Part shown: one piece after another, positions 21,351 through 37,029 of the stretch
Layout of the letters: every line of letters begins with the position of its first letter
How positions within the stretch are numbered: the stretch's first letter is position 1
Origin: an uncultured Bacteroidales bacterium
Lineage (GTDB): Bacteria > Bacteroidota > Bacteroidia > Bacteroidales > Bacteroidaceae
DNA: 38,034 nt
Direction: 5' to 3'
Assembly (NCBI GenBank): GCA_902802265.1
Contig: CADCLN010000029.1
Location: forward strand, 1 to 38,034
Notes under the pieces: model-generated
The model's input: the letters and a program-made list of their open reading frames with translations, nothing else
What the model was told of the DNA's origin: nothing
The model's database searches: none
Program-made: the position numbers and the translations under genes

Positions 21351-21425
21351 AAAAATGTTAGTTAGTTAGTTAATAAAAAGATTGACAAAGTCAATGATCT
21401 AATTCGTCATTCGTTGTTGCGGGGG
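21351..21425. other. Leader between GH31 and the modular secreted protein
   Basis: This 75-base gap holds four GTTA units (21357-21372) just before the ATG and a small hairpin, ATTGAC-AAA-GTCAAT (21381-21395). On the minus strand TGACTTTG (21386-21393) is one base from the -7 consensus, so a weak internal promoter is possible; no matching -33 box is seen. Confidence 0.4.
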
Positions 21426-23807
21426 TTATTTTACCGAGACAGCTTTCCCTGAATAAGTCACGGTCTTCTCTGTGCCTCCGATGATTCTCACACGGAAGGT
21501 GCGATTGGCAGGCATTCCGGCGAAGGTACCTGTGCGCTTGCCGATGGTAAGGGTGCGGCTGCGGTCGTTCCAGGTAAGCGGAATGGTGGAGTACTGGCCC
21601 TGCTCGTAGTTGTAGTTGTCGCCCTCGTCTTCGTAAAGAGTGAAAGAGGCATTGGCTCCAGGATAGACCACGAGTTCCAGGTTGTCATACTTGTTCTCAT
21701 TGGCGTACTGCACATCGGGACCCAGCGGCAGGATGGAACCGGCACGGACATAGAGGGGTGCATGACTGAGGGGTGCTGCTGCCTGAAGGGTCTGACCGCC
21801 GTCGAGTTTCTTGCCAGTCCAGTAGTCGTACCACTGTGCACCTGCGGGCAGATAAACCTGGTAAGTCTTGGCTTCGGTCCAGTTGACAGCTGCATAAGTC
21901 TCACGCTTGCCCTCCTTGCGGTCCCAACCAGACATGGGGTCGGTCTTCACAATCTTCTCCTGTGTGTAGAGCGGATCGAGTACGGGACAAACGAGGACAT
22001 TGCGACCAAACATATATTCACGGTTGTTGTTCCAAGTCTGCTTATCCTGCTTGAAATCCATGAAAAGAGCACGCATGAAACTGTCATCGTTCTTGCTGAC
22101 TTGCCATGATTGGCTATAGATGTAAGGCAGGAAACGATAACGAAGACGGACAGCATCGACCAGGGCTTCGTAAACGGGTTCACCAGGTTTGCCAAAGTAA
22201 TAGAGCTCACGATAGACCTCTGTGCCGTGGCTACGCATCATGGGCGTGAAGGCTCCGAACTGCATCCAGCGCACATAGAGTTCCTGATACTGCGGATTGC
22301 GTGTGCCCGAATTGGCACCCTGAGTGTTGTAACTACCAGCAAAAAATCCACCAATATCCACATTGACATGAGGGCAAGCTGTCAGCGTATAGTTCAGCAT
22401 GATAGGCACCTGCTTGCGCATATTTTCCCAACTGGACCCGATGTCACCCGACCATGTATTGGATCCGTAGCGTTGCTGTCCGGCAAAGTAGGAACGGGTG
22501 AGAATGAAGACACGCTTACCTGTATCGACAGCACGCTGATGGTCATACACACCACCCACAGTCATCAACGGGAAGGCATTGCGCACGCTGCGGTAACTAC
22601 CCATGGAGCACATTTCGTCCAGATCGCTGTCCTTGTAGCTGTGGTGGTCAGGGTCAGTCGAATCCATCCACCAGGCATCGATGCCCATCTTGTGCAGATT
22701 GGAGAGATACTTCCAGTAGATGTCACGAGCTTCTGAGCTGTAAGGGTCATAGACACGTACACCGCTGGGGTAGTCCATGCGTGGCGGCCAGAAAGAAAGT
22801 CCACTCTGCGGCCAAGTCTCGAAAGAAAACAGCAAGCCTTTTTCTTTCAATTCACGGAATGCTTTGGTTTCAGGACCAAACGATGCCCAGATGGAAATGC
22901 TCATGTGGGCATTCTGCTTGTGCACCTCGTCAATCATGCGCTGTGCCTGGCCAAAGTCTTCGTTGATAAACTCCATGGCGTTCCATGTGTAGTTGCTTCC
23001 CCAGTATTGCCAGTCCTGAATAATGCCGTCGAAAGGCACTTTCAGTTCACGGTATTTGCGTACAACCTCAAGCAGTTCCTGTTGGGATTTGTAGCGTTCA
23101 CGACTTTGATGAAAACCGTAGGTCCAGAGGGGCATCATGGGCACTTTGCCAGAGAGGTGACGCATCTCTCGGATAACGCCGTCGGCATCGCCACCATAGA
23201 TGAAGTAGTAGTCAACCAGCTTGCCGACTTCCGACTCCAGTTCCACGGTGCCAGCCTGACCCTCAGCCGGAGTAACCAGACGAGTGGGTGAATAGTTGTC
23301 CCAATAAATGCCGTAGCCCTTGATGGTCTGGTAGAAGTGAGCATAATCTTCCAGGTTGCTCTGCTCCATGCGGCGGTTTTCGCCGCGCTGGCTCATCTTG
23401 CCGTTCTGCAAAAGTCCTACACCATAAATGCCTTCATCTGCTCCCACAGTCCACGACTGCTTCACTTTGTAAGCACCTTTGTCGGGGCCGTTCTGAATGG
23501 GCGTGAATCCCCAGTTGCCTTCCTGTGTGAGCAGGTTGCCTTTGCTATCGGCAAAACTGACCTTGCCGTCCTTCACGGTGACGGTCAGCGCAGAGGATTT
23601 ATACACAGTTTCGCCGCCCTTTGTCGTTTTGCTCACCTTCACTTTTTCGGGAGTGGCAATGACGACGAGCGATTTCTTCTCCACGCTTTGTCCATTGTCC
23701 TTCACAATGCGCACGGTAGAGGGAGTGTAGAACTCCACCGTCTGTGCCCATGTAGCGACAGAAGCTAACAGGGCAGCCATAGTAAACAACGTCTTTGTCT
23801 TCATCAT
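21426..23807 (-). CDS. Secreted GH31 alpha-glycosidase (alpha-xylosidase or alpha-glucosidase)
   Basis: 793 residues with a signal peptide ending TWAQ (about 22). The N-terminal beta-sandwich (about 25-215) is followed by the GH31 TIM barrel (about 220-560) and C-terminal beta domains. The catalytic nucleophile is D382 in WWMDSTDP and the acid/base is D455 in TWSGDIGSSW. FDGIIQDWQYWG (259-270) and NVDIGGFFAG are further family blocks. The QDWQYWG signature occurs in Bacteroidetes alpha-xylosidases, but substrate cannot be decided from this. It follows the GH-A gene by three bases, which implies one mRNA and shared substrate. Unlike both neighbours it has no dockerin-like tail. Confidence 0.92.
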   Translation of the reverse strand: MMKTKTLFTMAALLASVATWAQTVEFYTPSTVRIVKDNGQSVEKKSLVVIATPEKVKVSKTTKGGETVYKSSALTVTVKDGKVSFADSKGNLLTQEGNWGFTPIQNGPDKGAYKVKQSWTVGADEGIYGVGLLQNGKMSQRGENRRMEQSNLEDYAHFYQTIKGYGIYWDNYSPTRLVTPAEGQAGTVELESEVGKLVDYYFIYGGDADGVIREMRHLSGKVPMMPLWTYGFHQSRERYKSQQELLEVVRKYRELKVPFDGIIQDWQYWGSNYTWNAMEFINEDFGQAQRMIDEVHKQNAHMSISIWASFGPETKAFRELKEKGLLFSFETWPQSGLSFWPPRMDYPSGVRVYDPYSSEARDIYWKYLSNLHKMGIDAWWMDSTDPDHHSYKDSDLDEMCSMGSYRSVRNAFPLMTVGGVYDHQRAVDTGKRVFILTRSYFAGQQRYGSNTWSGDIGSSWENMRKQVPIMLNYTLTACPHVNVDIGGFFAGSYNTQGANSGTRNPQYQELYVRWMQFGAFTPMMRSHGTEVYRELYYFGKPGEPVYEALVDAVRLRYRFLPYIYSQSWQVSKNDDSFMRALFMDFKQDKQTWNNNREYMFGRNVLVCPVLDPLYTQEKIVKTDPMSGWDRKEGKRETYAAVNWTEAKTYQVYLPAGAQWYDYWTGKKLDGGQTLQAAAPLSHAPLYVRAGSILPLGPDVQYANENKYDNLELVVYPGANASFTLYEDEGDNYNYEQGQYSTIPLTWNDRSRTLTIGKRTGTFAGMPANRTFRVRIIGGTEKTVTYSGKAVSVK

Positions 23808-23810
23808 GTC

Positions 23811-26582
23811 TTATTGTTGTTGTTGTAAATATTTATCTATAAGTTGAGTGATGTCTTCAATCGTAATCTTCCCGTTATTTTCCCCTGACAGGTATTGGGC
23901 GATGAGGTTTGTGATGTCTTCAACCGTAACGGGCTTTTCTTCGGGCAAAATACTGCTGTCGATATACTGCGACACTTCGCCCAAATCCTCCATCACCTTG
24001 ACAATTTCTTCCTGAGTAAGCGGATAGTTGTAAATACGGAAATCGTCGAGATATCCCTTGAAGAGCGGGTCGGCAGAGAACTGGCTGCGTCCCAGATAGC
24101 AGAGCGAAGCAGCAATGTCGCTGGGCTTGATGGTGAAAGCATCGCTCGTTGCCACTTCTTCGCCATCGACATAGAATTTCACCTGCACATTGCCTTCGCT
24201 GAGAGGATTGATGGTCAGGGCAACGTGTTTCCATGTGGATGTTCTCAGTTTACTTACAGAGAGTATCTGCTCATCGCTACCGTTCTTCATCACAAAGCGC
24301 ATCTCGCTGCCATTCGACGGTGTGAAGAACATATAATGATCGGTATCGTTGCCAAAGTCAAAGACGCGTTGCCAGTTGTCTCCCCCACTCCAGCGCACCC
24401 AGAAGGCCAGGGTCATGGCATCTTGCTGAGTGACGGCGTAGGGCAGTTCCAAATAACTATTCTGCGAAGAGAGATTCAGCGACTTTGCACCCGACTTCAC
24501 CATCGTTGACACCGTGCTGTACTTCTCCGTACCATAGAACGAAGCATTCATCTGGTTAGCCGTCTTGTCCATCAGGTCGCCTTCAAACTGCTGCTGCATG
24601 ACCAGGCGTTTCTCGCCGAGAGTCTGAGCAGTCACTTCTTCAGAAGCAACAGAACGGTTGCCTGCATAATCCACTGCCACCACCTTATACTGATAGCTGT
24701 GCCCCAACAGGGCTGTATTGTCCAGGAACGTAGTCAAAGTGTCATTGCGACCGATGGTGTTCCACTCACCATTTTCGCCACGCAGGATGTTATAGCAGAT
24801 GGGGTCAGAATCCGACACAGCTGCCCAGTCCAAACGAACACTACCTGTCTGTGCCGTTGCCTGCAAACCAGTCGGAGCTTCTGGAGCCTTCGTGTCGTTC
24901 TTTGAGTCGATGGGCTGGAAACGCCACTTATACTTCTTCAGGTTGGTGCTCGTGGTCTGTGGCGTCGGTGCACTCTGGAGCTTCACTTCTGTTCCTGTCT
25001 GGGTACTTCCACAGAACAGATACATACCACTCAAGCGATTGATAATATACCAATAGCCTTCACCAGCATACCGCAGCAACCACTGCTCGTTCATGGCATG
25101 ACCTGCATCGAAACAGATGACACCGGCATTCGCACTGAGACTATTGTTCAGCAGATTCAGATGTGTTGCCGTCAACTTAGGATTGGCGTTGTCAATAAAC
25201 CAGTAAGAGCAGTCGCCATCCGTATGCCCAGGCGTCACAATCCACTGCTGGGTATAGCCCGAAGTGACCCTTGTATTGCTCTGCACATTGGCCGAGCCCT
25301 TATAGGTCAGCATCTTCTTGCTCGACATATTCATAATCTGGTAAGTGCCATCGACAGGAGCCTGCGGCACATCTTCGCCCCAAGTGACGTCGAAGGAATA
25401 TTCCGCATTGATTTGTCCCTTCTGATAACCTGTTCCACCAGGCAAATCATAGACAAACTCACGCATCGGACCATAACCGTTGAAATAGACATCCTTCGCC
25501 GTGGAAACAAACCGATAGGAAGAATTGTTGGCCTGACGTTCCGACGAACCGATGTATCCATGCACCTCGCCCGTAGAGTCGTTGCGATACACAGCACCAG
25601 CCGTCCAGTGCCTGCGATCCTCACCATAGCCTAAGCGCACACCTTCATTAGAATCAATGCAGAACTGGCCACGGGCACGGCTGTCAAAGCCCCACCAAAT
25701 GCCGTTCTGCATTCCATACTGCACACCCACGATGGCTTCGCCCACATTGTGCAACTCGTCTGCCGAAGCCTCTTTGCCGTCGGCCCTCACTTGCGTGAAA
25801 AATTTTGCGTAGTTATCAAACGAACCTGCCAATTGGTGCGTATTTCCTTCGTCCAGATAGTCCTTCAGGTAGTTGTACCAGGGTAAGGCGCGGTCATCGT
25901 TCAGCGTATTACCACCGCACACGCGGATATTGTCAAAATACGGGTCAGCCTTGATAAGCTTGGCAATCTCCAGGAAATCGACCATGGCCTGCGATTCATT
26001 GGCAGCCTGGTCCCACACGAAGTCAGGCTCATTGAAGGGCGAAATGCTCACCACCGTCAGCCCCTGACTCTCCACGTAGGCCACGCTGGCCTTGATGAGC
26101 TTGTACCACTCCAAAGGCTTCCCCTGATAATTGGTACGGCCCGTGTAGTCGGTATTTCCAGTACTGTTGCCCTTGGAATTCAATTCATTGAACAGTGCCT
26201 CGTGGTCGCAGTTGATGTTCACCATCGTGGTGCCCGTCAACTTCATCAAGTCACACCGCCACTTCAGCCTCGTTTGCTGCCGCGCCGTCAGCGTGTAAGT
26301 GCCATCGCCATTGTCTGTCACCAAGTCGCAAGGCTGGAACGACACACGCCCTGTAGCAAAATTGCCCTTGCCAATCCAGTTCACACCGCGTTTCACATTG
26401 AAGTCCCAGTCCCATGCAGCATCCATTCCCCAATTAACCTTATACTCTGTACCCTGGGCTGTTACATCAAACGGAATCGTACAGTCCGTCATTTTGTAAG
26501 CCTGCAAAAAATCCATACCCGTCTGAGCGTTCATCCCTACAAAACAAAACGCTAAACAGCTAATAAGAAAACCTTTTTTCAT
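23811..26582 (-). CDS. Secreted multidomain clan GH-A type glycosidase with trefoil, FnIII, LamG-like and dockerin-like modules
   Basis: 923 residues with a signal peptide ending MNAQ (20). The N-terminal part (about 25-400) looks like a TIM-barrel hydrolase of clan GH-A: ISPFNEPDF puts the likely acid/base at E185, and E282 in HNVGEAIVG is a candidate nucleophile. It resembles GH30-type enzymes, but I cannot fix the family. After it come a ricin-type trefoil (about 404-555, with QQWIV and NEQWLL), a fibronectin III domain (about 565-650), a LamG/concanavalin-like domain (about 655-865) and two dockerin-like helices (about 880-923). It has its own promoter and leads the GH31 operon. The domain set suggests an endo-acting enzyme on a plant polymer. 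Confidence 0.85.
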   Translation of the reverse strand: MKKGFLISCLAFCFVGMNAQTGMDFLQAYKMTDCTIPFDVTAQGTEYKVNWGMDAAWDWDFNVKRGVNWIGKGNFATGRVSFQPCDLVTDNGDGTYTLTARQQTRLKWRCDLMKLTGTTMVNINCDHEALFNELNSKGNSTGNTDYTGRTNYQGKPLEWYKLIKASVAYVESQGLTVVSISPFNEPDFVWDQAANESQAMVDFLEIAKLIKADPYFDNIRVCGGNTLNDDRALPWYNYLKDYLDEGNTHQLAGSFDNYAKFFTQVRADGKEASADELHNVGEAIVGVQYGMQNGIWWGFDSRARGQFCIDSNEGVRLGYGEDRRHWTAGAVYRNDSTGEVHGYIGSSERQANNSSYRFVSTAKDVYFNGYGPMREFVYDLPGGTGYQKGQINAEYSFDVTWGEDVPQAPVDGTYQIMNMSSKKMLTYKGSANVQSNTRVTSGYTQQWIVTPGHTDGDCSYWFIDNANPKLTATHLNLLNNSLSANAGVICFDAGHAMNEQWLLRYAGEGYWYIINRLSGMYLFCGSTQTGTEVKLQSAPTPQTTSTNLKKYKWRFQPIDSKNDTKAPEAPTGLQATAQTGSVRLDWAAVSDSDPICYNILRGENGEWNTIGRNDTLTTFLDNTALLGHSYQYKVVAVDYAGNRSVASEEVTAQTLGEKRLVMQQQFEGDLMDKTANQMNASFYGTEKYSTVSTMVKSGAKSLNLSSQNSYLELPYAVTQQDAMTLAFWVRWSGGDNWQRVFDFGNDTDHYMFFTPSNGSEMRFVMKNGSDEQILSVSKLRTSTWKHVALTINPLSEGNVQVKFYVDGEEVATSDAFTIKPSDIAASLCYLGRSQFSADPLFKGYLDDFRIYNYPLTQEEIVKVMEDLGEVSQYIDSSILPEEKPVTVEDITNLIAQYLSGENNGKITIEDITQLIDKYLQQQQ

Positions 26583-27396: not shown

Positions 27397-27424
27397 CCTC
27401 ACCCCCCATTTTAACTAGACATAG

Positions 27425-27579
27425 AAAAAGGTTCTAAGGAAACAAAGAAAAAGCATCAAGCAGAAATTCCTCTATTCCCAAATTCCTTAGAGACAAAAAG
27501 GTTCTAAGGAAACAAGGAACCAAGGGAAAAAGCATCAAGCAGAAATTCCTCTATTCCCAAATTCCTTAGAGACAAAAAA
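27425..27579. repeat. Two hairpin repeat units (about 70 and 78 bases)
   Basis: Two head-to-tail units each start GTTCTAAGGAAACAA and end AATTCCTTAGAGAC. Within a unit the ends are inverted (TCTAAGGAA against TTCCTTAGA), so each can fold as a long imperfect hairpin. The second unit carries an extra GGAACCAAGG-like stretch. They lie between the HAD stop and the terminator of the peptide gene. The related array at 31811-32050 has three 80-base units. Confidence 0.85.
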
Positions 27580-27612
27580 AGGCAAGCCCATGCATATTGC
27601 ACAGGCTTGCCT
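27580..27612 (-). terminator. Terminator downstream of peptide gene A
   Basis: A 15-base-pair stem (AGGCAAGCCCATGCA against TGCACAGGCTTGCCT, one G-U type mismatch) with a 3-base loop. Read on the minus strand it is followed by seven T, making a strong intrinsic terminator for the large protein/peptide A unit. Confidence 0.85.
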
Positions 27613-27625
27613 TCCCTTATATAAT

Positions 27626-27643
27626 CACCCTACCAACAGGGTG
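27626..27643 (-). other. Small conserved hairpin after peptide gene A
   Basis: CACCCT and AGGGTG pair around a 6-base loop, 15 bases after the peptide stop. The same hairpin and its flanks are identical at 32100-32117, so it belongs to the duplicated cassette. It may protect the mRNA 3' end. Confidence 0.6.
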
Positions 27644-27658
27644 AACGATAACACCTTC

Positions 27659-27853
27659 TTACCAAAGACTGCCGAAGTTGGAGTCAGAACCATAGTCATC
27701 ACGCTCCTTGGTTTCCATGCCTAAGCCTGGATTTGCTGGCTTGGGATTTTCACCACTATTGGGCATCACCTTTGGACCAGAGACTGCACTCAGCATTACA
27801 TCCATTTCAACCTTCGCAACGAAGATTTCAGGTTTCATATATATCTTTTTCAT
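27659..27853 (-). CDS. Small cassette peptide A, ends DYGSDSNFGSLW
   Basis: 64 residues, no signal peptide or membrane helix. The N-terminus (MKKIYMKPEIFVAKV) matches the pattern MKKxYxKPxxxVxKV of peptide B, and the last 12 residues DYGSDSNFGSLW are identical in both. The middle, rich in G, P, S and N (SGPKV...GENPKPANPGLG), differs. This leader-plus-core look recalls precursor peptides or short secreted peptides, but no modifying enzyme or exporter is nearby. It lies 139 bases after the large secreted protein gene with no clear promoter of its own, so it is probably co-transcribed. Function unknown. Confidence 0.8.
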   Translation of the reverse strand: MKKIYMKPEIFVAKVEMDVMLSAVSGPKVMPNSGENPKPANPGLGMETKERDDYGSDSNFGSLW

Positions 27854-27893
27854 AATCTTATTTGTTTTTTGTGATTAAGTTATACATTATTCA

Positions 27894-27982
27894 TTCATGG
27901 AAAATTTGTGAATAATTCGTGCTCATTCGTGTTTTTATTTAGACATATAATTGCCATAAATTATTCACGAATTTTCCATGAA
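27894..27982. repeat. Long inverted repeat between large protein gene and peptide gene A
   Basis: 24-base arms (27894-27917 and 27959-27982) match at 23 of 24 positions and enclose 41 bases. They begin TTCATGGAAAA and end TTTTCCATGAA. The equivalent spot in the second cassette (32366-32455) has the same design with more mismatches. It could cut down read-through into the peptide gene, or be a REP-like element. Confidence 0.8.
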
Positions 27983-27992
27983 TATTAATTAA

Positions 27993-30900
27993 TTACTTCA
28001 CGAGAACTTTCTTGGTTTCGCCATTACGCATCTTCACAATGTTGATGCCTTTCTGCAGACCGTTCAGTGGAGCACCATCGAGTGTGTAGATAGCATCTAC
28101 TTCACCAGAAGTCAATGCAGAGATAACAGAGATAAGTGTAGCATCTTCTTTCTCGACGAAGAGAACACGTGCCTTAACACCACTTTCTCCAGAAGTTGGA
28201 AGGGTGAGGTATGCACGGTATTCAGTGGCTTCAAAAGAACCTTCAATTTGATAGAATGCTTGAACACCATTTTGTGTTTGAAGTACGTATGAACCTTCTG
28301 AAATTGCATCAGTTGTATAAACACCTGTCAACAAACCTCCTACATAGCTTTTTTCGGCGGCAGTACCCCAACCAGAAAGATCTGTTGCTGTTACTCCGGT
28401 TGCTGAATAGAGCAGATATGGCTCGTTAGCCTTTGGTTCTGTTACTTCTTTCAATTCCAATACATCGTTTTCATAGCTATCGCAAGAATAAGCTACTACA
28501 CCAGCTGGCAATATTGGAGTGAATGGGAAGATGCGTGTTGCAAACTTGCCTGCATTAACAGTTACACTTACTGTAGCCTGTGAAGCCTCGGCAATAGTAA
28601 AGTCTGCATTACCAACTTCTGTATAGATATTACCTTCGTTTTGGCAAGCAATAGTAACATCTGTAATAGTATTCACAATATTGAATACATTCTCTGTTGA
28701 CGTAGCGACAATCTTGAACTCGCCCTTCTTTGCTGCATCTGTAGTTGCCTGAATTTGGGCTTCTTTCCAGTTAACCTGGCTATCGTTCAATGAACCATAA
28801 GTCAGATAAACTGCACCTTCTTCACGCTCCATATAAATATAATAGGTATTAGTCTTGCCTTCAACAGGAGTAAAGACACAGGCCTGTGCCAAATATTCCT
28901 CTGGACGACTGGAAGCTTTGAGAGTGAAACCGGTACTATTAGTTATATAGCTACTACTATATACAGGATATTCTGCAACTCGACCAAGCACAATAGCATT
29001 ACCTGTACTACTAACAACAATGTTGTAATGCTTGCTGGCCTCTGGTGCATTCAGAGCTTGATTCTTATAATTATTCAAACGATTATTATAAGCATTCAAA
29101 GCTGGTTGTATGAATGAAGCAGTGGCATAAGGATTATCAGGATAAACAGCAGAAACACTCATCATCGTGTTGTATGCTTCTTCGTATGTTGCATAAAGAC
29201 TGTTGTTGGTAGTTTCGTTGTACTGGAATACGCCTGTTCCGACATTCGTTTCGTACTTCGCAAATTTACCTGCGGCTTTAGCGGCAGCAAGTGCATCGTA
29301 AGCAGTAACAGCAGCACGGAAAGCAGCCTGTTTCTCTGCGATATCATCAATAACTGCCTTGTAAGCAGCCTCAGTTTCTTCAGCAGGAGTTGCAGCAAGG
29401 GCTGTTTGGAAATCATATCTTTCTTTACCAGTCACATTGTTATACAGTGCATTAGAAAGGTCTGCCGAAGCTTCACTCTTCAACTGTGGAAGATACTGCT
29501 TGTAGTAAACGAGCAGACTGCTACCATAGTAATAAAGACGGAAGTTGTCGAAGATAGTCCAGTCGCCACTAACATGATCTTTTGTACTCTTGAAGCCGAG
29601 CTTCAGGCTACCGCCGTTTTCGTCTGTTACGACAGCTGCACAAGTGGCATCATAAAGACCTGCTTCAAAATACAATTTAGCACCTTGCTGTGAGTTGGGG
29701 ACATATTTGTAAGCACCTTCAGAACCAACTTGGCTATCATACGGCCAATCGCCATAATTTCTACCTTCAACCTTATCAAGCTTAGGTGAAGTCTGTGCAT
29801 CAGCTGCAATGTTCTTCACATTTGATGTGATGCTGTTGATGTAGAGTACGCTTGAAGCATTGTCAGTACCACCGATATATGCATCATATACAGCACCAGC
29901 CCATCCTGGACGCTGGAAAGCCTGTACGCTGAGACTGTAGCTACCTGTAGGAAGACCATTCACTGTTTGATTGATGTCAAATTCATGTTCGTAGTATTCA
30001 CAGTTATCCCAATTTACATTAGGAGCATCACCTGTATATGACCAACCTTCACGAGAATTGTTATCAAATGCAGGATTTACCATCAGGCAAGTAATATTAA
30101 AATACTCACCATCATTCTTAGGCTCAGCACCAGCAATGTAAGTCTTAATGGCAGCGGTCAGTGCTGTGGTTGCCTCCGTAATGGCAGCAGCCGTAGTAGC
30201 ATTGTCAGCAGCAGATGTCTGAGTGGTGATGGCTGTAGCGAAAGTACTGTGACTGCCAGCAGTAGTTTCTGTATATTCCACTGCTGCAATAGCATCAGCG
30301 CCAGCCTTTACTTTCAGCCATGTGGCGTATGGAGAGGCCATGGCCTGGTAGTTGGTGTTGGCATTGGTGATGTTCTCAATTGCAGCGTTGAATTGGCTTT
30401 CCTCTGTGAAAGCGTTGTCGTCATTGTCATTATCATCAACGACAGTCTGCCAAGCTGCCTTTGCAGTTGCAGAAATAGCAGAACCGGCAGCACCATCAAT
30501 AAGAGCCTGAGCCTCTGCAACAGCTGCATCCAAAAGATCTTGATATGCTTTCAGGGGATCTCCATAAAATTTGAGACGGAAATTATCAACAGGTGTCCAA
30601 TCACCAGCAAAACTTTCAGTACCCACCTTTATAGTCAGAGTATTATTAGTAACATTTGTACGTACGGAATAATCGCCCCTATCACCTATAGCAACCTTAT
30701 CATCGTTTGCATAAAGATAGAAACCACTACCTCCACGAGCTTGTGCTAACACAGTCACTTCGTACAGACCATTATCAATACCCGTCAATGTTTGTGATAA
30801 TGAAGCATCAGGGAAATTCGATCCAGCCCATTTTTCAACCCATCCAACACCCTTATGCTCATTACCCCAGTTTCCATTATCCATATACCAATATGCATTA

Positions 30901-31580
30901 TCGGGGGTATTCGTCCATCCGTGCAAATTGAGGTATTCGAAACCTGGGTTGGTGATAGCATAAGTCATATCTGTTGGAGAACTAACAGAAGCAACATCAT
31001 TAAGGTCAAAGAGTTCAAACATACCGCAAATGAACCAAGACCCTGCCGCAGTATGTGTTCCTGTAATACCAATGTTGACAACTGTATTGTCCGCATCAAC
31101 ATCAAACTCTACAAAATTACGGTACATTTTCGTGTCAAATCGGTTTGCTGCTTCCGCCATAGAATTTGCGTAGCTAGCTTGACCTTCAATGCTACCAAGA
31201 GTTTTAATAGCCACTTGTTTGTCACCAGCTTTCAGATATGCTTCGGATTTTGTTGCATCAGTGTCATAGCTCCAGCTATATCGATAGAAAGAGTAATTAA
31301 CCAAACGGTAAGATCCTTTTGGTAAAGTGATGTCTTGTGTTAGTGAATAAGAAGGTCTTGCAGGACTTCCGTTATTATCGCCAGCCCAACATTCCACCGT
31401 ATAACCTACGGTATTATGCCCTTGAGTAGGTCCTGCATGGAAGCCCGTAGCTGTCCATCCTGTGCTGTAACCTTGTGACAAGGTGGAATTCGTGATGTAC
31501 TGCGAAGTCACATCCTTTTGTGCATTCATACCCAATGCACCGGCGACGAGGCACGCCGCCAAAAGTAGTTTTCGTTTCAT
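27993..31580 (-). CDS. Large secreted modular protein of cassette A
   Basis: 1195 residues with a signal peptide (ending MNAQ, 21) nearly identical to that of cassette B. Three jelly-roll, CBM-like modules are seen at about 25-195, 205-340 and 498-690; the last two end GDWTxxDNFRLxxYG. Alanine-rich helical FIVAR-like segments lie at about 342-485 and 695-890. The C-terminal 300 residues are beta-rich and finish IYTLDGAPLN...KKVLVK, a Prevotella-type C-terminal module. No catalytic motif is seen. The likely role is a cell-surface or secreted glycan binder or adhesin. It has a strong promoter with a leader of about 139 bases and is followed by peptide A. Confidence 0.85.
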   Translation of the reverse strand: MKRKLLLAACLVAGALGMNAQKDVTSQYITNSTLSQGYSTGWTATGFHAGPTQGHNTVGYTVECWAGDNNGSPARPSYSLTQDITLPKGSYRLVNYSFYRYSWSYDTDATKSEAYLKAGDKQVAIKTLGSIEGQASYANSMAEAANRFDTKMYRNFVEFDVDADNTVVNIGITGTHTAAGSWFICGMFELFDLNDVASVSSPTDMTYAITNPGFEYLNLHGWTNTPDNAYWYMDNGNWGNEHKGVGWVEKWAGSNFPDASLSQTLTGIDNGLYEVTVLAQARGGSGFYLYANDDKVAIGDRGDYSVRTNVTNNTLTIKVGTESFAGDWTPVDNFRLKFYGDPLKAYQDLLDAAVAEAQALIDGAAGSAISATAKAAWQTVVDDNDNDDNAFTEESQFNAAIENITNANTNYQAMASPYATWLKVKAGADAIAAVEYTETTAGSHSTFATAITTQTSAADNATTAAAITEATTALTAAIKTYIAGAEPKNDGEYFNITCLMVNPAFDNNSREGWSYTGDAPNVNWDNCEYYEHEFDINQTVNGLPTGSYSLSVQAFQRPGWAGAVYDAYIGGTDNASSVLYINSITSNVKNIAADAQTSPKLDKVEGRNYGDWPYDSQVGSEGAYKYVPNSQQGAKLYFEAGLYDATCAAVVTDENGGSLKLGFKSTKDHVSGDWTIFDNFRLYYYGSSLLVYYKQYLPQLKSEASADLSNALYNNVTGKERYDFQTALAATPAEETEAAYKAVIDDIAEKQAAFRAAVTAYDALAAAKAAGKFAKYETNVGTGVFQYNETTNNSLYATYEEAYNTMMSVSAVYPDNPYATASFIQPALNAYNNRLNNYKNQALNAPEASKHYNIVVSSTGNAIVLGRVAEYPVYSSSYITNSTGFTLKASSRPEEYLAQACVFTPVEGKTNTYYIYMEREEGAVYLTYGSLNDSQVNWKEAQIQATTDAAKKGEFKIVATSTENVFNIVNTITDVTIACQNEGNIYTEVGNADFTIAEASQATVSVTVNAGKFATRIFPFTPILPAGVVAYSCDSYENDVLELKEVTEPKANEPYLLYSATGVTATDLSGWGTAAEKSYVGGLLTGVYTTDAISEGSYVLQTQNGVQAFYQIEGSFEATEYRAYLTLPTSGESGVKARVLFVEKEDATLISVISALTSGEVDAIYTLDGAPLNGLQKGINIVKMRNGETKKVLVK

Positions 31581-31725
31581 AGAAAAACAGTTTTTGAGTT
31601 AATAATAAAAAGTTAATTTAGAATGCTCTGTTATATATTAATAATGTATATATGTCAGTTAGAATAAAGAGCTATAACCTTTCGGGTATCACAATTTGCA
31701 ACACCCTCATCTACACAATTCGCTG

Positions 31726-31756
31726 CAAAGGTACTAACTTTCTATCTTTCTGCAAA
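31726..31756 (-). promoter_or_regulatory. Promoter for cassette A
   Basis: On the minus strand TTTG (31753-31756) and TACCTTTG (31726-31733) are exactly 19 bases apart. The start would be near 31719, leaving an AT-rich leader of about 139 bases before the ATG, unusually long for this window and a possible site of control. Confidence 0.75.
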
Positions 31757-31810
31757 ATATTCAGAAAGGTTTTTTGTCATAAAACAGCCGAAATGGGTGA
31801 AAACCTGTGT

Positions 31811-32050
31811 TTTTGCTCTAAGGAATCAAGGAACCAAGAAAAAAGCATCAAGCAGATATTCCTCTATTCCTAAATTCCTTAGAGACAGAAAAAGGTTCTA
31901 AGGAATCAGGGAACCAAGGAAAAAGCAGTAAGCAAAAATTCCTCCATTCCTAAATTCCTTAGAGACAGAAAAAGGTTCTAAGGAATCAAGGAACCAAGGA
32001 AAAAGCACCAAGCAGATATTCCCCTATTCCTAAATTCCTTAGAGATAGAA
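31811..32050. repeat. Three tandem 80-base hairpin units
   Basis: Units at 31811-31890, 31891-31970 and 31971-32050 have an exact 80-base period. Each holds TCTAAGGAATCA...AGGAA near its start and TTCCTAAATTCCTTAGA near its end, so each folds on itself. The first unit's opening bases (31811-31815) have diverged. They lie between the cassette B terminator and the cassette A promoter. There are no variable spacers, so this is not a CRISPR array. Confidence 0.88.
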
Positions 32051-32053
32051 AGC

Positions 32054-32086
32054 AGGCAAGCCTATGCACATTGCACAGGCTTGCCT
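32054..32086 (-). terminator. Terminator-like hairpin downstream of peptide gene B
   Basis: 15-base arms with one G-U type mismatch and a 3-base loop, nearly identical to the hairpin at 27580-27612. On the minus strand it is followed by GCTTTCTAT, a poorer U-tract than in cassette A, so termination may be weaker here. Confidence 0.75.
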
Positions 32087-32099
32087 TCCCTTATATAAT

Positions 32100-32117
32100 C
32101 ACCCTACCAACAGGGTG
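32100..32117 (-). other. Small conserved hairpin after peptide gene B
   Basis: CACCCT/AGGGTG hairpin, identical in sequence and position to that at 27626-27643, 15 bases from the peptide stop. Confidence 0.6.
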
Positions 32118-32132
32118 AACGATAACACCTTC

Positions 32133-32330
32133 TTACCAGAGACTGCCGAAGTTGGAGTCAGAACCGTAGTCACCACGGTCCTTGGTATCGGATACTCCAC
32201 CAGCGAATTCGCCCTGACCTTTTCCTAAGCCACTGGCTCCGGATACGCTTGTAACTGGGCTACCAGAGAGGAGATTTTCATTTGCGACTTTCGTCACTTC
32301 CACATTGGGCTTAATATATACCTTTTTCAT
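32133..32330 (-). CDS. Small cassette peptide B, ends DYGSDSNFGSLW
   Basis: 65 residues with no signal peptide. N-terminus MKKVYIKPNVEVTKV, then ENLLSGSP, a glycine/serine-rich middle (SGASGLGKGQGEFAGG) and the tail KDRGDYGSDSNFGSLW, the last 12 residues identical to peptide A. The LLSGSP step between a charged leader and a glycine-rich part resembles a double-glycine type leader boundary, but this is inference. The gene follows the large secreted protein by 134 bases, which contain an inverted repeat, and no own promoter is evident. Function unknown; a peptide precursor, a surface-exported peptide or a regulatory small protein are all open. Confidence 0.8.
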   Translation of the reverse strand: MKKVYIKPNVEVTKVANENLLSGSPVTSVSGASGLGKGQGEFAGGVSDTKDRGDYGSDSNFGSLW

Positions 32331-32365
32331 AATGTTATTCTATGTTTTTATTGCGTTCAACAATC

Positions 32366-32455
32366 ATTCATGAAAAATTGCGGGTAATTTGTGGCAATTT
32401 GTGTTAAAGATAAAACATCAATTATCACCTGAATTAACCACAAATTTTCATGAAT
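32366..32455. repeat. Inverted repeat between large protein gene and peptide gene B
   Basis: 24-base arms (32366-32389 and 32432-32455) match at 21 positions and enclose 42 bases. Arm ends read ATTCATGAAAA and TTTTCATGAAT. It is the counterpart of 27894-27982. Confidence 0.75.
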
Positions 32456-32464
32456 TTCTTTTTA

Positions 32465-35400
32465 TTATTTTACAATGAACTTCTTGCCGTTCTTGATGTA
32501 CAGACCCTTTACAGGACGAGTTACAAGACGACCGCTGATGTCATAAATCTTGCCGTTCTCTACGTTCTCTGTAGCCTCGATGCCCTCGATAGAAGTAGCA
32601 ACCTCATCATTGACAACGAAGCGAACCTTAGTTTCAGAAGAAGCTGGTACCTGAATGTAAGCACGGTAAGGATTGATAGTAGCAGCTTTCGTAGCATCTG
32701 TACTTACCTTGTACAAGTTGTTTTCGCTTACTACATAGTAGAGATTCGTTGCGTCACTTGTCAGATTCTCAATCTGGCTGTATGTTCCCTTGAATGTAGC
32801 GCCATCCTTTACTACATCTTGAGGAGTAGCAGCAGCTACTTCCACATTATTAAGGGTAATGCCATAGCTATTAATCATGTTAACAGCCGTTGGATTAGTT
32901 ACACGCATCAAGAATGGCTGGTTAGCTGTGTTGTTACCTGATACAAAATTCAGATCACCATTTTTAAATGAATTCAGCGTAGCAATAGTGGCAGCAGAAG
33001 AAGGCATTGTTGATGGGAATTCAACAGCAAACGGATAAACAGCTGTTGCCCATCTGTTAACTGTCAACGTGCGAGTAACCTTCACTGTTGGATATGTGCC
33101 AGGAGCATATGTTGGAGCTGGTTGACCATCGACAAATTCAAGAACCTGAGAAGCTGCCTTCTTTAATTCAAAGTCTGTAATAACAAAGTTGTTACCACTC
33201 TGAACATGGAATACATAGTTACCAGCAGCACCTGTAACGAAAAGAATCTCATAAGAAGTCATACCTGCTGTATTCTTTGCGTTGCCAACTATGTCGCGGT
33301 CTGGAGTACCAAGATTGATTGCAGTCATGCCATCTTCGCCCTTCGATACTGAAACAGTGATACCACTACGGGTCTCGTTATTCCAACCTGCGGCCTTTAA
33401 TTTCAGCGTATAAATAGTGTTTGCTTTGAGAGGCATTTCATAACCTGTAGTTTCACCATAAGTGATACCACCGGTCCACGACATCATTGCCGATGCAGCT
33501 GATGCATCAGCAAGACCTGGATAGCTTTCAACATTCTTCAGCATCTTACGCATATTTGCACTAGTTGTCCATCCATTAGGTGTATAATCCAGTGGCGTTG
33601 TATCATCCTCAGCACATTCACTGAAATCACCATCATAGAATGCATTTACTTCTTCTGTATTAACTGTCCAAGTAGCATTAGTCAAAGCATCTATTGCAGC
33701 TTGAACATCAACCTTTAAGTTTTGAACTTCCTGGTTGATAGCTTTTGCTGCTGCGAGAGCGGCAATTGCCTCCACGTTGTTGTATGGTGCATATTCACCG
33801 CTTTCAAAACCGAGCGTATGAGATGCTATAGCCTCGTTCAAGGCTGTGTATTCAGCATCACCAGCGTAAGCGTCTTCATTAAAATCAAGCTGAATAAGAC
33901 GGAAACGGTTGAACGAAATCCATTGCTCGTATGCTGTAGAAGTAGCTGCAATTGCTAAAGTCAAAGGTTTTCCTTCGCTTTCAAATTCTATAGAAACATC
34001 GTCCCAACCATGACCGAAAACACCTTTTGCAACGCCTGAACCATTACGTGGAAGATTGACACTCTGACCACCAATAGAAAGGGTGTACGCTGTCAAGTCC
34101 ACAGAGCCACGTGCTGTTACAGTGAGAAGATAAGTACCAGCAGGAACAACCACTTCGCGTGTCATATTAATATTGACACCTGCAGAAGTGCTCCATCCAC
34201 CATTATAATATTTTCCAGAAGCATTGCCGCTGGCATCAGTATATTTTTCCTCAGCTCTATCATCTAAACCTATACCATTAGTCCAGCCTGTATTTACATC
34301 AGGATCAGCATCTGCTATTGCCGAAGCATAATTCACAGCGTCATCTTCACCTTCTGCCAAAGCATGACTTTCATAATATGCACGCAAGGCAGTAGTGATT
34401 GCAGCAGTCTTTGCATTAGCATCGGAGGCAGAAGTTGCAGCAGCAGCAGCTTTTGCATTGTCTAAAGCTGTCTTCTTAGCAGTTGCAGCATAAGCAAGCA
34501 CAGGAGATGCAGCCGCTTTAGCAGCCACAAAAGCATCATAAGCGTCCTTGGCACCCATGAACACATAATCAGCATAGCCTATATTGAAGGTTGCATCTGC
34601 ATAGCCAGCTACCGAAGCTGTTGGCTCTTCATTCACAGCTGTTTGCAGATTTGTTTTTTCTTCTCCTGTTACATTAACATAGTCCCCATCTGCAAGATGA
34701 TTTGTTGTGGCATTATAAATAGACTGGAAGCCCTTTAATGTTAAATCAGATGCTCCACAATACTCTAATGAAACATTGTCAATACCCATCCAGTTAGCTA
34801 CAGCTGTTAACTGATTTAATCCATACTCCAATTCATTAGCAGTAACATAGGTATATACGGTGTATGCTGTAGGAGTTGTTGTGTAAACGTATGTTTTATT
34901 ATCATTAGCATAAACATATTGTCCTTTGGCTGCATCAACAGTGTTAACGAAAGCGCAGATATTCAGCTTGTACGTTCCATTGGGGATATCTTTTACCGAT
35001 TGATACATTTTGCCAGTAAATGCAATATTATTCCAGTTTTCCCAGAAATTCCCCGTAAATGCACCAGTCTGGTTATTAGCCGTTTTAGAACTACTTGCAC
35101 CTGTCGTTGTAGTCCATCCGCTAATATTGGAGTCGAAAGTACCATTGGTAACCAATGATGTGGTGTATGGTGATTCAAGAGAATAAGATGTAGAGGCACC
35201 GAAAGCACCCACAGGTGCGAATGCAGAATCAGAAAGGAATTTTGCGGATGTAGCACCGGTAATGCCTATGCCACCACCATTTGCTGCAACAAGGATGAAT
35301 TCGTCAAAACGGTCGAGATCTTGATTACTATTATTAGACACATAACCTGTACGATATAGCTGGACGTAAGGCTGATTAACGATAGTTGCAGGGGTTGTGA

Positions 35401-36154
35401 ATGTAGTAGTAAAGGTTTGAATAGATTCTGTTCCTTTTGTGTTTTCGCCGGAACTGAAGTAATCTGATTTAAATTCCTCACTACCTACTTGGAATTTATA
35501 TTTTGCACCAGCTTGGTTATTTGTATTTGCCCTGTAATTATAGGAAATCTGATAAGGCGTAAAGTTCTTCATAACACCAGAAGCCAATTGCTGTGTCAGA
35601 TAATAACCTGCATTGTGCATCAGCATGTTGTAGCTGCCAGTCATTTCGCTTCCAGAACGAACAGAAACACCATTGTCGGGAGTACCTTTGTCTTTATTGT
35701 AAGGAGTCCAGTGAGTAGGCTTATATCGTCCATTGGAATAAGTTCCTGCAGAAGTATCTTCAAATCCACCATTCTGTATCAGATTTTCAGTTGAAGCGGA
35801 TGTCAAACCTGTTGGGAATGTAGGATTGGCAGGAGTAGAAACTTTTACAGTTCCTTTATATGCACTTTCTTCATATACATATACAACATCACCGCCATTC
35901 CTAACAAAACGAACAGTTCCACCAACTGTAGGAGTATAGGAGAATGAGCCACCAAGCACATTGATTGCCGTACCGGCAGTACATCCTGTCAATTCAAGAG
36001 TGTAAGTGGTTCCATTAGGAACAAATGTGGAGAGTGAAGAAATGGCAACTCCACTAAAATCACCCTTTTCAAAAAAGAATGGCACGTTTGTTTGTGCCCT
36101 CATTCCGAGTGCACTGGCGACAAGGGCTGTCGCCAAGAGTAGTTTTCGTTTCAT
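32465..36154 (-). CDS. Large secreted modular protein of cassette B
   Basis: 1229 residues, signal peptide ending MRAQ (21), nearly the same as cassette A. Layout: a short beta domain (about 22-110), CBM-like modules at about 121-290 (NLIQNGGFED), 333-471 (LVTNGTFDSN...WMGIDNVSLEYCG), 605-756 and 838-996, alanine-rich helical segments at about 475-600 and 757-835, and a C-terminal module (about 1030-1229) ending IYDISGRLVTRPVKG...KKFIVK. It shares ends and architecture with the cassette A protein but has more modules. The likely role is glycan binding or adhesion outside the cell. No consensus promoter is visible in the 113 bases before it. Confidence 0.85.
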   Translation of the reverse strand: MKRKLLLATALVASALGMRAQTNVPFFFEKGDFSGVAISSLSTFVPNGTTYTLELTGCTAGTAINVLGGSFSYTPTVGGTVRFVRNGGDVVYVYEESAYKGTVKVSTPANPTFPTGLTSASTENLIQNGGFEDTSAGTYSNGRYKPTHWTPYNKDKGTPDNGVSVRSGSEMTGSYNMLMHNAGYYLTQQLASGVMKNFTPYQISYNYRANTNNQAGAKYKFQVGSEEFKSDYFSSGENTKGTESIQTFTTTFTTPATIVNQPYVQLYRTGYVSNNSNQDLDRFDEFILVAANGGGIGITGATSAKFLSDSAFAPVGAFGASTSYSLESPYTTSLVTNGTFDSNISGWTTTTGASSSKTANNQTGAFTGNFWENWNNIAFTGKMYQSVKDIPNGTYKLNICAFVNTVDAAKGQYVYANDNKTYVYTTTPTAYTVYTYVTANELEYGLNQLTAVANWMGIDNVSLEYCGASDLTLKGFQSIYNATTNHLADGDYVNVTGEEKTNLQTAVNEEPTASVAGYADATFNIGYADYVFMGAKDAYDAFVAAKAAASPVLAYAATAKKTALDNAKAAAAATSASDANAKTAAITTALRAYYESHALAEGEDDAVNYASAIADADPDVNTGWTNGIGLDDRAEEKYTDASGNASGKYYNGGWSTSAGVNINMTREVVVPAGTYLLTVTARGSVDLTAYTLSIGGQSVNLPRNGSGVAKGVFGHGWDDVSIEFESEGKPLTLAIAATSTAYEQWISFNRFRLIQLDFNEDAYAGDAEYTALNEAIASHTLGFESGEYAPYNNVEAIAALAAAKAINQEVQNLKVDVQAAIDALTNATWTVNTEEVNAFYDGDFSECAEDDTTPLDYTPNGWTTSANMRKMLKNVESYPGLADASAASAMMSWTGGITYGETTGYEMPLKANTIYTLKLKAAGWNNETRSGITVSVSKGEDGMTAINLGTPDRDIVGNAKNTAGMTSYEILFVTGAAGNYVFHVQSGNNFVITDFELKKAASQVLEFVDGQPAPTYAPGTYPTVKVTRTLTVNRWATAVYPFAVEFPSTMPSSAATIATLNSFKNGDLNFVSGNNTANQPFLMRVTNPTAVNMINSYGITLNNVEVAAATPQDVVKDGATFKGTYSQIENLTSDATNLYYVVSENNLYKVSTDATKAATINPYRAYIQVPASSETKVRFVVNDEVATSIEGIEATENVENGKIYDISGRLVTRPVKGLYIKNGKKFIVK

Positions 36155-36267: not shown

Positions 36268-36665
36268 TCAAGAAATTCTTTTGGTGACATCACTGGTATA
36301 TCTGATTTTGTGAAGTCTTTTTTTATTTCGTGTAATGATGCAGTCGCAACCTGTTTGAATTGCCGCATAATATTGCATGGCATCCTCTATGTCTGTAAAC
36401 CGACAATCCTCTGCAATTGCTTTACGTACTACTTTTTCATCAATCGCTGCCACATTTACAATGGAGGAGAATTGACGTAATGCTAATGACAAATCCTCAT
36501 GGGACATCTTGTTCTCCAACACATAGGCACAAAATCGCAGCCACACAAGCTTCTACTTTTCCTCGGTCAACCCAAAGAGAACAGCATCGTTGCATCATCA
36601 TAAAACGGTTCTCGGTGGGCAATAAGGTCTAACATCACATTGGTATCGATAAAAAGTCTCATCAT
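36268..36665 (-). pseudogene. Broken PIN-domain (VapC-type) toxin gene
   Basis: The minus strand starts MRLFIDTNVMLDLIAHREPF, the PIN N-terminus with the first catalytic aspartate, then hits TGA after LFSLG. The match continues in another frame as DRGKVEACVAA, and then in a third as YVLENKMSHEDLSL to the end, including FTDIEDAMQYY and CDCIITRNKKRL with the later acidic residues. So two frame changes, near 36571 and near 36530, break a gene of about 130 codons. The start overlaps the antitoxin stop as ATGA. An intact VapC would be a ribonuclease; this copy should make no full toxin unless sequencing errors are at fault. Confidence 0.85.
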
Positions 36666-36970
36666 CAAGCATATTTTTCTTTCAAATGCCGTCTATACGC
36701 TTCTTTTTCATCAAGCATATCGGACAAATCGACTTTTTTTCCGATACTAAGCACATAAGGAGTAGCTCTCATTCCATTCATATCCTCACGCTCTATTTCT
36801 TTTAATAGCTGAGCCACCACAAGCTGTTTGTCATGTGCTGTCAGTCCTTGTAGAATTGCCCAAATGCCATTTAGTGAAACCTGTGTATTAGGGGCATCCT
36901 TCAAGTTTGCCGCCAGCAGTTCTGGAGCCATTTCATTAAATGCCGAATTTATGTATCCCGTGGTATCCAT
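36665..36970 (-). CDS. Probable antitoxin partner of the PIN gene
   Basis: 101 residues from the start MDTTGYINS; a longer frame exists upstream, but its codons run through the operator-like repeats. The protein is helical and acidic/basic mixed, ending LSDMLDEKEAYRRHLKEKYA, a charged tail of the sort that wraps around PIN toxins. Position and the ATGA overlap with the PIN gene define it as the antitoxin in a type II pair. I do not recognise a named antitoxin family. It appears intact while its toxin is broken. Confidence 0.75.
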   Translation of the reverse strand: MDTTGYINSAFNEMAPELLAANLKDAPNTQVSLNGIWAILQGLTAHDKQLVVAQLLKEIEREDMNGMRATPYVLSIGKKVDLSDMLDEKEAYRRHLKEKYA

Positions 36971-36984
36971 TTTTCTTCTTATTT

Positions 36985-37029
36985 GTATGCATATTTTTTC
37001 GCATACGCGCATACGTGGCTGCAAAATTA
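36985..37029 (-). promoter_or_regulatory. Promoter and operator-like repeats of the toxin-antitoxin pair
   Basis: Three copies of one 6-base word lie before the antitoxin: GTATGC at 36985-36990 and its inverse GCATAC at 37001-37006 and 37009-37014. On the minus strand TAATTTTG (37022-37029) is a -7 box and TTG near 37052-37054 a weak -33. The repeats lie between start point and ATG, as expected for autorepression by the toxin-antitoxin complex. Confidence 0.6.

Follow-up and report, generated by a model that had tools for sequence, protein, structure and literature searches.

Small leader-bearing peptides encoded beside surface proteins of Bacteroidales are probably precursors processed in trans

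We analysed a stretch of 38,034 nucleotides (hereafter the window) from an uncultured Bacteroidales bacterium (GenBank assembly GCA_902802265.1, contig CADCLN010000029.1, positions 1 to 38,034), in which two adjacent units each combine the gene of a large secreted protein with the gene of a peptide of 64 or 65 residues. These are two of 18 such peptides that our broad profile A7 finds in the window's genome (G000). The peptides share a conserved leader and probably are precursors resembling ribosomally synthesized and post-translationally modified peptides (RiPPs), co-expressed with surface proteins and processed in trans.

Both units lie on the minus strand and run in the same order: large open reading frame (ORF), inverted repeat, peptide gene, hairpin, terminator-like repeat and repeat array. 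A sequence-only reading of this DNA had described two adjacent units of identical order, and we located both as described (ORFs, inverted repeats, hairpins and arrays). The coding features, in which CTD stands for C-terminal domain, are as follows.

32465..36154, minus strand: large secreted protein 1 (P0004, 1229 residues), from the ORF list
32468..32608, minus strand: predicted sorting signal (short type) at the C-terminus of protein 1, ATSIEGI...IYDISGRLV..KGLYIKNGKKFIVK, by the short-CTD motifs defined in PMC11969387
32133..32330, minus strand: peptide 1 (P0002, 65 residues), putative leader-type precursor
32259..32330, minus strand: leader part of peptide 1, MKKVYIKPNVEVTKVANENLLSGS
27993..31580, minus strand: large secreted protein 2 (P0003, 1195 residues), from the ORF list
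27996..28142, minus strand: predicted sorting signal (short type, GxN) at the C-terminus of protein 2, ATLISVI...IYTLDGAPLNGLQKGINIVKMRNGETKKVLVK, by the GxN subgroup defined in PMC11969387
27659..27853, minus strand: peptide 2 (P0001, 64 residues), putative leader-type precursor
27782..27853, minus strand: leader part of peptide 2, MKKIYMKPEIFVAKVEMDVMLSAV

The peptide family is defined by its N-terminus, which hardly varies in length and reads Y-x2-P-x-hyd-x-hyd-hyd-x-hyd-x4-hyd-hyd-[C/A]-x-S (hyd, hydrophobic). Across 59 peptides of two genera, counting from the tyrosine as position 0, proline stands at +3 and a hydrophobic residue at +5 in 44/59, at +7 in 49, at +8 in 46, at +10 in 56, at +15 in 48 and at +16 in 55; cysteine or alanine follows at +17 in 41/59 and serine at +19 in 47/59. 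We take the [C/A]-x-S behind two hydrophobic residues to resemble a signal-peptidase site. Eleven peptides of other families likewise have a hydrophobic residue at +10 (11/11) and +16 (10/11). The cores are variable, acidic (median net charge -3 over the last 15 residues of the 59 peptides) and poor in cysteine, which occurs in a single one of the 59, and 50 peptides have a tryptophan among their last 12 residues. Arginine is present in 48/59 cores, and K.R, R.R or RR in 28/59, a pattern only suggestive of Arg-specific cutting of the core by the C11 peptidase discussed below. By eye, the peptides have no signal peptide. The sequence-only reading had taken an invariant 12-residue tail as the mark of the family, which did not hold: the two window peptides have identical tails because the 3' ends of their genes are near-identical DNA, and copies elsewhere in that genome have different endings, ...FGDLW among them.

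The number of copies found in the window's genome grew with the breadth of the search, from 5 with one sequence to 7 strong matches with a five-sequence profile and 18 with profile A7. The five-sequence profile matched 20/24 genus relatives and none of 16 further genomes from the order; profile A7, for which only two genera supplied sequences, found the peptide in 12/295 Bacteroidales genomes at E<=0.01 (an earlier profile, A2, was used at E<=0.001). A further relative occurs in a metagenome-assembled genome from roe deer abomasum (Bacteroidaceae bacterium), again behind a short tail of the kind described below. Copies other than the window pair are more alike as protein than as DNA, with 19-48% identity between the peptides and the sequence that heads the alignment. 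The ratio of non-synonymous to synonymous change (dN/dS) is below 1 in 6/6 pairs (0.68, 0.48, 0.30, 0.08, 0.44 and 0.52). The first and closest of these pairs says little because its frame (92%) is no better conserved than the flanks (98% and 92%); in the second, flanks of 89% and 61% compare with 83% in the frame. The peptide frames are under coding constraint. Family scans touched a paeninodin lasso family with 2/37 members (best E 0.014) and a radical SAM RiPP family with 1/37 (E 0.0021), both weakly; the remaining matches were single, at chance level and to unrelated families, and a solved-structure search with the peptides found no relative. At one locus (L195:1501-2610, genome G269) a YxxP-type leader, MKKIYTQPRIETVATTPQQILCASGG..., stands at the N-terminus of a 369-residue open frame and may be the leader of a larger protein.

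The pairing of peptide and surface protein recurs well beyond the window. We read part of the matches (loci L001-L039), of which 37/39 gave a peptide by pattern; by eye, 31 of these 37, all in the window's genus, have a same-strand gene with the same kind of short C-terminal tail directly upstream. The six exceptions are two peptides at contig ends, one behind a dockerin-type end and three with another neighbour. A tail model trained on the window's genus only was then tested against the neighbouring genes at 71 of the 75 places matched by profile A7 (left out were two places of G109, one of G079 and one of G269). In G135, which belongs to another, distant family, it put 19/22 peptides behind a short-tail protein; the other three lie behind a dockerin-type protein, before a lipoprotein and beside neither. 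The corresponding counts are 5/7 in G317, with one more behind a dockerin-type protein, and 3/6 in G235. The sequence-only reading had suggested a surface protein and a co-expressed peptide, and our results support a peptide co-encoded with a secreted surface protein. As a check it had asked whether the peptide recurs directly downstream of large proteins with the same C-terminal module, and the peptide does so both in the genus and in G135. Of two contrary results named beforehand, neither was observed: peptides have a consistent neighbour, and coding constraint acts on their frames.

The partner is not always a large protein with this tail. In the window's genome, 10/18 peptides have a short-tail neighbour (the model having been trained on tails of this genus), five lie beside lipoprotein genes and three beside neither (C2:13402-13572, C50:2032-2103 and C5:86141-86212). 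In G079, 8/11 peptides stand directly before lipoprotein genes. Our lipoprotein pattern is permissive, and the counts quoted here (5/18 and 8/11) were also checked by eye. In G043 and G263 the peptides lie behind long-type tails of the type IX secretion system (T9SS), as judged by eye, and one of these long-tail proteins matches PF18962 at E 9.6e-4, below the cut-off. The gaps between peptide and partner genes are often <60 nt, and the peptide is mostly downstream. Viewed from the tails, 10 of the 30 best in the window's genome (55 tails at E<=1) are paired with a peptide, a rate that is biased because profile A3 was built from peptide-linked tails.

Several observations concern the less usual partners. 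Dockerin-like C-terminal repeats occur in genes before peptides at L016, L101 and L113:6533-10750, and dockerin ends might act here in much the same way as short CTDs. Lipoprotein-side peptides are found at L107, L110, L226 and L228 in the window's genome and at L256-L265 in G079; several of those in the window's genome have a leader of the ...VQLQHxxxLL type. Two window-genome lipoproteins were scanned, and one gave a weak Lcl_C match.

The two large proteins of the window begin alike, with 18/24 first residues in common and a signal-peptide-like start (MKRKLLLA..ALGM.AQ, by eye), and share a C-terminal module with 26% identity over 215 aligned residues, while their middles differ, in agreement with the sequence-only reading. 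By eye, the middles consist of jelly-roll-like modules unlike in number and sequence; in protein 1 these are 'NGxFD..GW' modules with helical Ala-rich spacers. No Pfam or NCBIfam family accounts for either protein: P0004 matched nothing better than E 0.06, and the best NCBIfam match of P0003, at E 0.017, is below the cut-off. Solved-structure searches with the large proteins gave nothing clear; in a search with the tails, the C-terminal ends of three deposited chains matched at E<1e-3.

Short T9SS CTD motifs, including a GxN subgroup, have been defined in Prevotella intermedia (PMC11969387). Using these definitions, we scored 30 aligned tails, both window proteins among them: T-x-[I/V] is present in 26/30, motif B in 30/30 and motif D in 24/30 (GxY in 15 and GxN in 9), and 27/30 end in Lys or Arg. 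SprA (TIGR04189), the T9SS part that we searched for, is over the cut-off in 40/41 genomes, including the window's. Given the short-signal motifs in the tails and SprA in the genome, we therefore read the large proteins as predicted T9SS cargo with a short CTD, which would be secreted, cleaved and anchored to glycan. The long type A CTD was rejected, as neither P0003 nor P0004 matches TIGR04183 at E<=1; against all 30 tails this model gave one match only (E 0.26). In one profile comparison with the seven TIGR04183-matching tails of the window's genome, the motifs align (probability 84.8%), which suggests that the short tails are distant relatives of the long type. At none of the 13 TIGR04183 loci of this genome (7 over the cut-off) did we find a peptide.

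The sequence-only reading had noted that no modification enzyme is adjacent to the peptides. This stands for the window as read; elsewhere in the same genome we found a candidate maturation cassette. On contig C11, an operon-like run encodes a C11 peptidase (E 3.5e-51), an HprK/PEPCK-like kinase, an S24/S26-like peptidase and a PqqD protein (E 1.2e-13, over the Pfam cut-off). The kinase has the motifs GVSGTGKST and NDDNP and matches ScmC (1.4e-5) and HprK_rel_A (1e-4), both below the NCBIfam cut-offs; the S24/S26-like peptidase matches signal peptidase I at 2.6e-6, also below the cut-off, and its Ser and His are invariant in 8/8 aligned sequences. By eye, this gene order is repeated in G007 (L136) and partly in other members of the genus that were read. 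The G135 cassette comprises kinase, peptidase, PqqD and an ATP-binding cassette (ABC) transporter, with NTP_transf_5 nearby. The NTP_transf_5 family is present in 16/20 genomes tested and twice in the window's genome, where its genes (L224 on C17, L225 on C1) lie, by eye, among glycosyltransferase-like genes. In G282 (L172) the PqqD and kinase genes stand beside Wza/Wzc-like genes, again by eye.

Peptides and kinase go together across one sample of 295 Bacteroidales genomes (kinase profile A4 at E<=1e-10, peptide profile A7 at E<=0.01). The kinase is present in 9/12 peptide genomes versus 37/295 overall (hypergeometric 5e-7, which, like the tests that follow, ignores phylogeny), in 6/8 peptide genomes once the source genera are removed (p 4e-5), and, counted by genus, in 8/10 versus 33/184 (p 1.7e-5); the earlier profile A2 (E<=0.001) gave 6/8 (6e-5). 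A model of the leader only was applied to 283 kb of sequence flanking 18 of the 37 kinase genes, where it picked out 5 short ORFs (E<=0.014) and had no further match up to E 1; the best shuffled match was 0.15, and 160 kb of other loci gave none. These ORFs lie beside or within the cassette in 5/18 kinase neighbourhoods. In G254 the order is peptide, lipoprotein, kinase, S24, PqqD, NTP_transf_5 and ABC; in G043 the peptide directly precedes the kinase, with an S26-like peptidase (by eye), PqqD, NTP_transf_5 and ABC; in G262 and G114, of two families, it lies between PqqD and kinase (Pfam was run for G114 only); and in G282 it shares a 6-kb stretch with the cassette, next to a lipoprotein, with polysaccharide-export-like genes intervening.

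Several results weigh against precursors matured by this cassette. Serine at +19 is present in only 5/11 peptides of other families, and the invariance of tyrosine and proline is partly by construction, because the A2 and A7 peptide sets (other than the 5 seed sequences) were picked with patterns that demand [Y/F]-x2-P. A few A7 matches are near the threshold (G032 0.009, G114 0.007, G263 0.004), and the disregard of phylogeny noted above applies to every co-occurrence test. Three of the 18 window-genome peptides are without a surface-protein neighbour. G263 (65% complete) and G317 (89% complete) have the peptide and no kinase by profile A4; in the third kinase-negative peptide genome, G109, we recognised a diverged cassette only by eye. 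Conversely, 28/37 kinase genomes are without a peptide match (G254 and G262 among them are positive by the leader model), as are 13/18 kinase neighbourhoods by that model, so that either the cassette has other substrates or the peptides there are too diverged. In the window's genome the cassette is encoded in trans, not near the peptides, and the link in this genome rests on relatives; beside nine cassettes of its own genus or f111, all within the 160-kb control, there is no leader-type peptide. The kinase's Pfam matches are weak and below the cut-off wherever tested, the peptidase matches are also weak in G135 and G114 and missing in G043, and the PqqD domain alone is widespread (18/20 genomes at E<=1, 14 over the cut-off). 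For the window's genus no exporter was identified.

Even so, we consider processing in trans of RiPP-like precursors the likely explanation. From the leader, the pairing and the gene content, which are read from sequence, we infer recognition, modification, cleavage, export and function of the peptide. The PqqD protein would bind the YxxP leader and deliver the peptide to the kinase (and nucleotidyltransferase) for modification of Ser/Thr in its core; the leader would be cut off after the A-x-A-like [C/A]-x-S by the S26-like peptidase, and an ABC transporter would export the core. The modified peptide could then reach the envelope together with the large protein placed on the surface by the T9SS. 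There it might cap or anchor the paired protein, bind it as a ligand, or act as a signal. We favour a role connected with the paired surface protein, because the two remain paired from family to family even as each of them diverges. It is tempting to speculate that the modified peptide is physically incorporated into the product of the neighbouring gene, be it a T9SS-anchored protein or a lipoprotein, or is attached at its side, with one cassette decorating the whole set of surface proteins; we put this forward tentatively, as a possibility well short of likely.

The closest known parallels are kinase-bearing lasso-peptide clusters, among them the paeninodin clusters, which share the general make-up of the Bsf type. 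A Bsf-type cluster has precursor (A), PqqD-type protein (B1), peptidase (B2), kinase (K), nucleotidyltransferase (N), cyclase (C) and ABC transporter (D); in it, YxxPxL leader residues are needed for recognition by B1 and the kinase is stimulated by B1 (PMC10368454). On that account, the YxxPx-hydrophobic leader, the PqqD protein and the HprK-like kinase are alike here, as are the nucleotidyltransferase (several cases) and the ABC transporter of the clustered versions. Our system differs in having an S24/S26-like peptidase in place of the B2-type PF13471, and in its many, mostly dispersed precursors paired with surface proteins. PF13471 has no match in 18/20 genomes, including the window's (G030 alone is over the cut-off, and G317 gives a weak match), and a lasso peptide was rejected on this ground for the window's genome; leader and kinase are still lasso-like. 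The candidate cassette also resembles the HprK-related kinase A/PqqD and SynChlorMet (Scm) cassettes of NCBIfam through weak kinase and PqqD matches, all below the cut-offs. To our knowledge these cassettes have no link to T9SS cargo, and our literature searches found none.

Other peptide systems share single features with this one. The Bacteroidales RiPP clusters of PMC10352776 have GG (double-glycine) leaders, peptidase-containing exporters and, as here, small leader-bearing precursors. Unlike in such systems, the leader ends here in [C/A]-x-S, and a GG-leader bacteriocin was rejected on this leader end (Cys or Ala at +17, Ser at +19; counts above); no search was aimed at peptidase-containing ABC transporters. 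Prochlorosins are made from many dispersed precursors that one maturation enzyme serves in trans, and these precursors are not known to be tied to surface-protein genes; the likeness lies in many dispersed precursors, here probably also served in trans, and enzymes and leader differ. Two traits of RiPPs that depend on a recognition element are present here, namely a conserved leader with a variable core and a PqqD-type protein in the genome. As for the surface proteins, the tails carry the same short signal as the P. intermedia cargo, and the words 'downstream' and 'small protein' are absent from the main text of PMC11969387, as far as it was available. In the titles and abstracts of the open literature, with subscription papers and bioRxiv largely outside that scope, we did not find the link between peptide, surface protein and cassette, and none of the 14 papers containing both 'type IX secretion' and 'RiPP' has either term in its title or abstract.

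Alternatively, each peptide could be a dedicated, unmodified partner of its cargo (a chaperone, pilot or stabiliser) whose leader is alike by convergence. The pairing with T9SS-type cargo is close, repeated in two families and often has the short gaps noted above, which speaks for such a partner. However, the same leader type lies beside unrelated proteins (short-CTD and long-type CTD cargo, dockerin-type proteins and lipoproteins), which disfavours a cargo-specific chaperone because it does not predict unrelated partners; in addition, peptide genes lie in or beside the PqqD-kinase cassette in 5/18 neighbourhoods, and the peptide has, by eye, no signal peptide, whereas the cargo is exported. 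We regard a dedicated partner as unlikely. Small exported peptides commonly serve as signals, and a regulator or signal of the neighbour's expression, such as a secreted autoinducer matured in the same manner as we propose, would suit the many variable-core paralogues in one genome; the pairing would then stem from regulation and not from a physical partnership. Yet the peptide gene is mostly downstream of the paired gene, and no recurring regulator gene was noticed at the loci read by eye, where no systematic test was made; we judge this explanation improbable. The sequence-only reading had left precursor, signal and chaperone-like partner side by side. Of these, the precursor now has some evidence in its favour and the chaperone-like partner none beyond the pairing itself; the earlier interpretation as a whole is partly supported.

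The repeats of the window bear on a further explanation, that the peptide genes hitch-hike. The non-coding features of the two units are listed here.

32366..32455, no strand: inverted repeat between large gene 1 and peptide 1, 24-nt arms, 88% complementary
32099..32118, no strand: small hairpin TCACCCT/AGGGTGA just past peptide 1 (by eye; alike in both units)
32054..32086, minus strand: terminator-like inverted repeat of unit 1, 15-nt arms, 3-nt loop
31817..32051, no strand: array of unit 1, 80-bp hairpin-forming repeats, 2.9 copies
27893..27983, no strand: inverted repeat between large gene 2 and peptide 2, 25-nt arms, 96% complementary
27625..27644, no strand: small hairpin just past peptide 2 (by eye; alike in both units)
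27579..27613, minus strand: terminator-like inverted repeat of unit 2, 16-nt arms, 3-nt loop
about 27420..27570, no strand: two diverged copies of the same hairpin repeat in unit 2

The peptide-gene 3' end, the terminator-like repeat and the repeats are near-identical DNA in both units, and the rest of the peptide gene differs. TCTAAGGAA of the repeat array occurs 10 times versus 0.19 expected (80-bp repeats, 31817-32051 and 27420-27570). With a narrow pattern, the inverted repeat was seen solely before 4 window-genome peptides in 219,711 bases of sequence picked around peptides and cassettes. A mobile or repeated 3' segment, with a small ORF and terminator, copied behind unrelated genes would account for the shared 3' ends and for the similar inverted repeat before these 4 peptides, but we think it most improbable, given that other copies share protein more than DNA, that the inverted repeat is absent from other gaps between large gene and peptide (for example at L004) and that dN/dS is below 1 in all six pairs.

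Elsewhere in the window, short ORFs upstream of unit 1 (36268-37024) include a toxin-antitoxin-like pair by eye, and a weak DUF6364 match (E 0.02, below the cut-off) falls among them. The large neighbours at 18375-26582 are an HpiC1-like protein, a GH31 glucosidase and a ricin-lectin/laminin-G protein, perhaps a glycan-use cluster.

Taken together, these results suggest a previously overlooked class of peptide that is produced along with surface proteins. With 18 candidate precursors in the window's genome and at least 22 in G135 (22 of 30 candidates scored), this would, if true, be an unusually rich peptide system of gut Bacteroidales, and one that cluster-based mining could easily overlook, since its enzymes are encoded away from the precursors. 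Two fields, T9SS and RiPPs, that are unlinked in the literature searched would be joined, and a possible function would emerge for an unnamed PqqD-kinase-peptidase cassette. The question of why small genes follow these T9SS cargo genes would also become directly testable.

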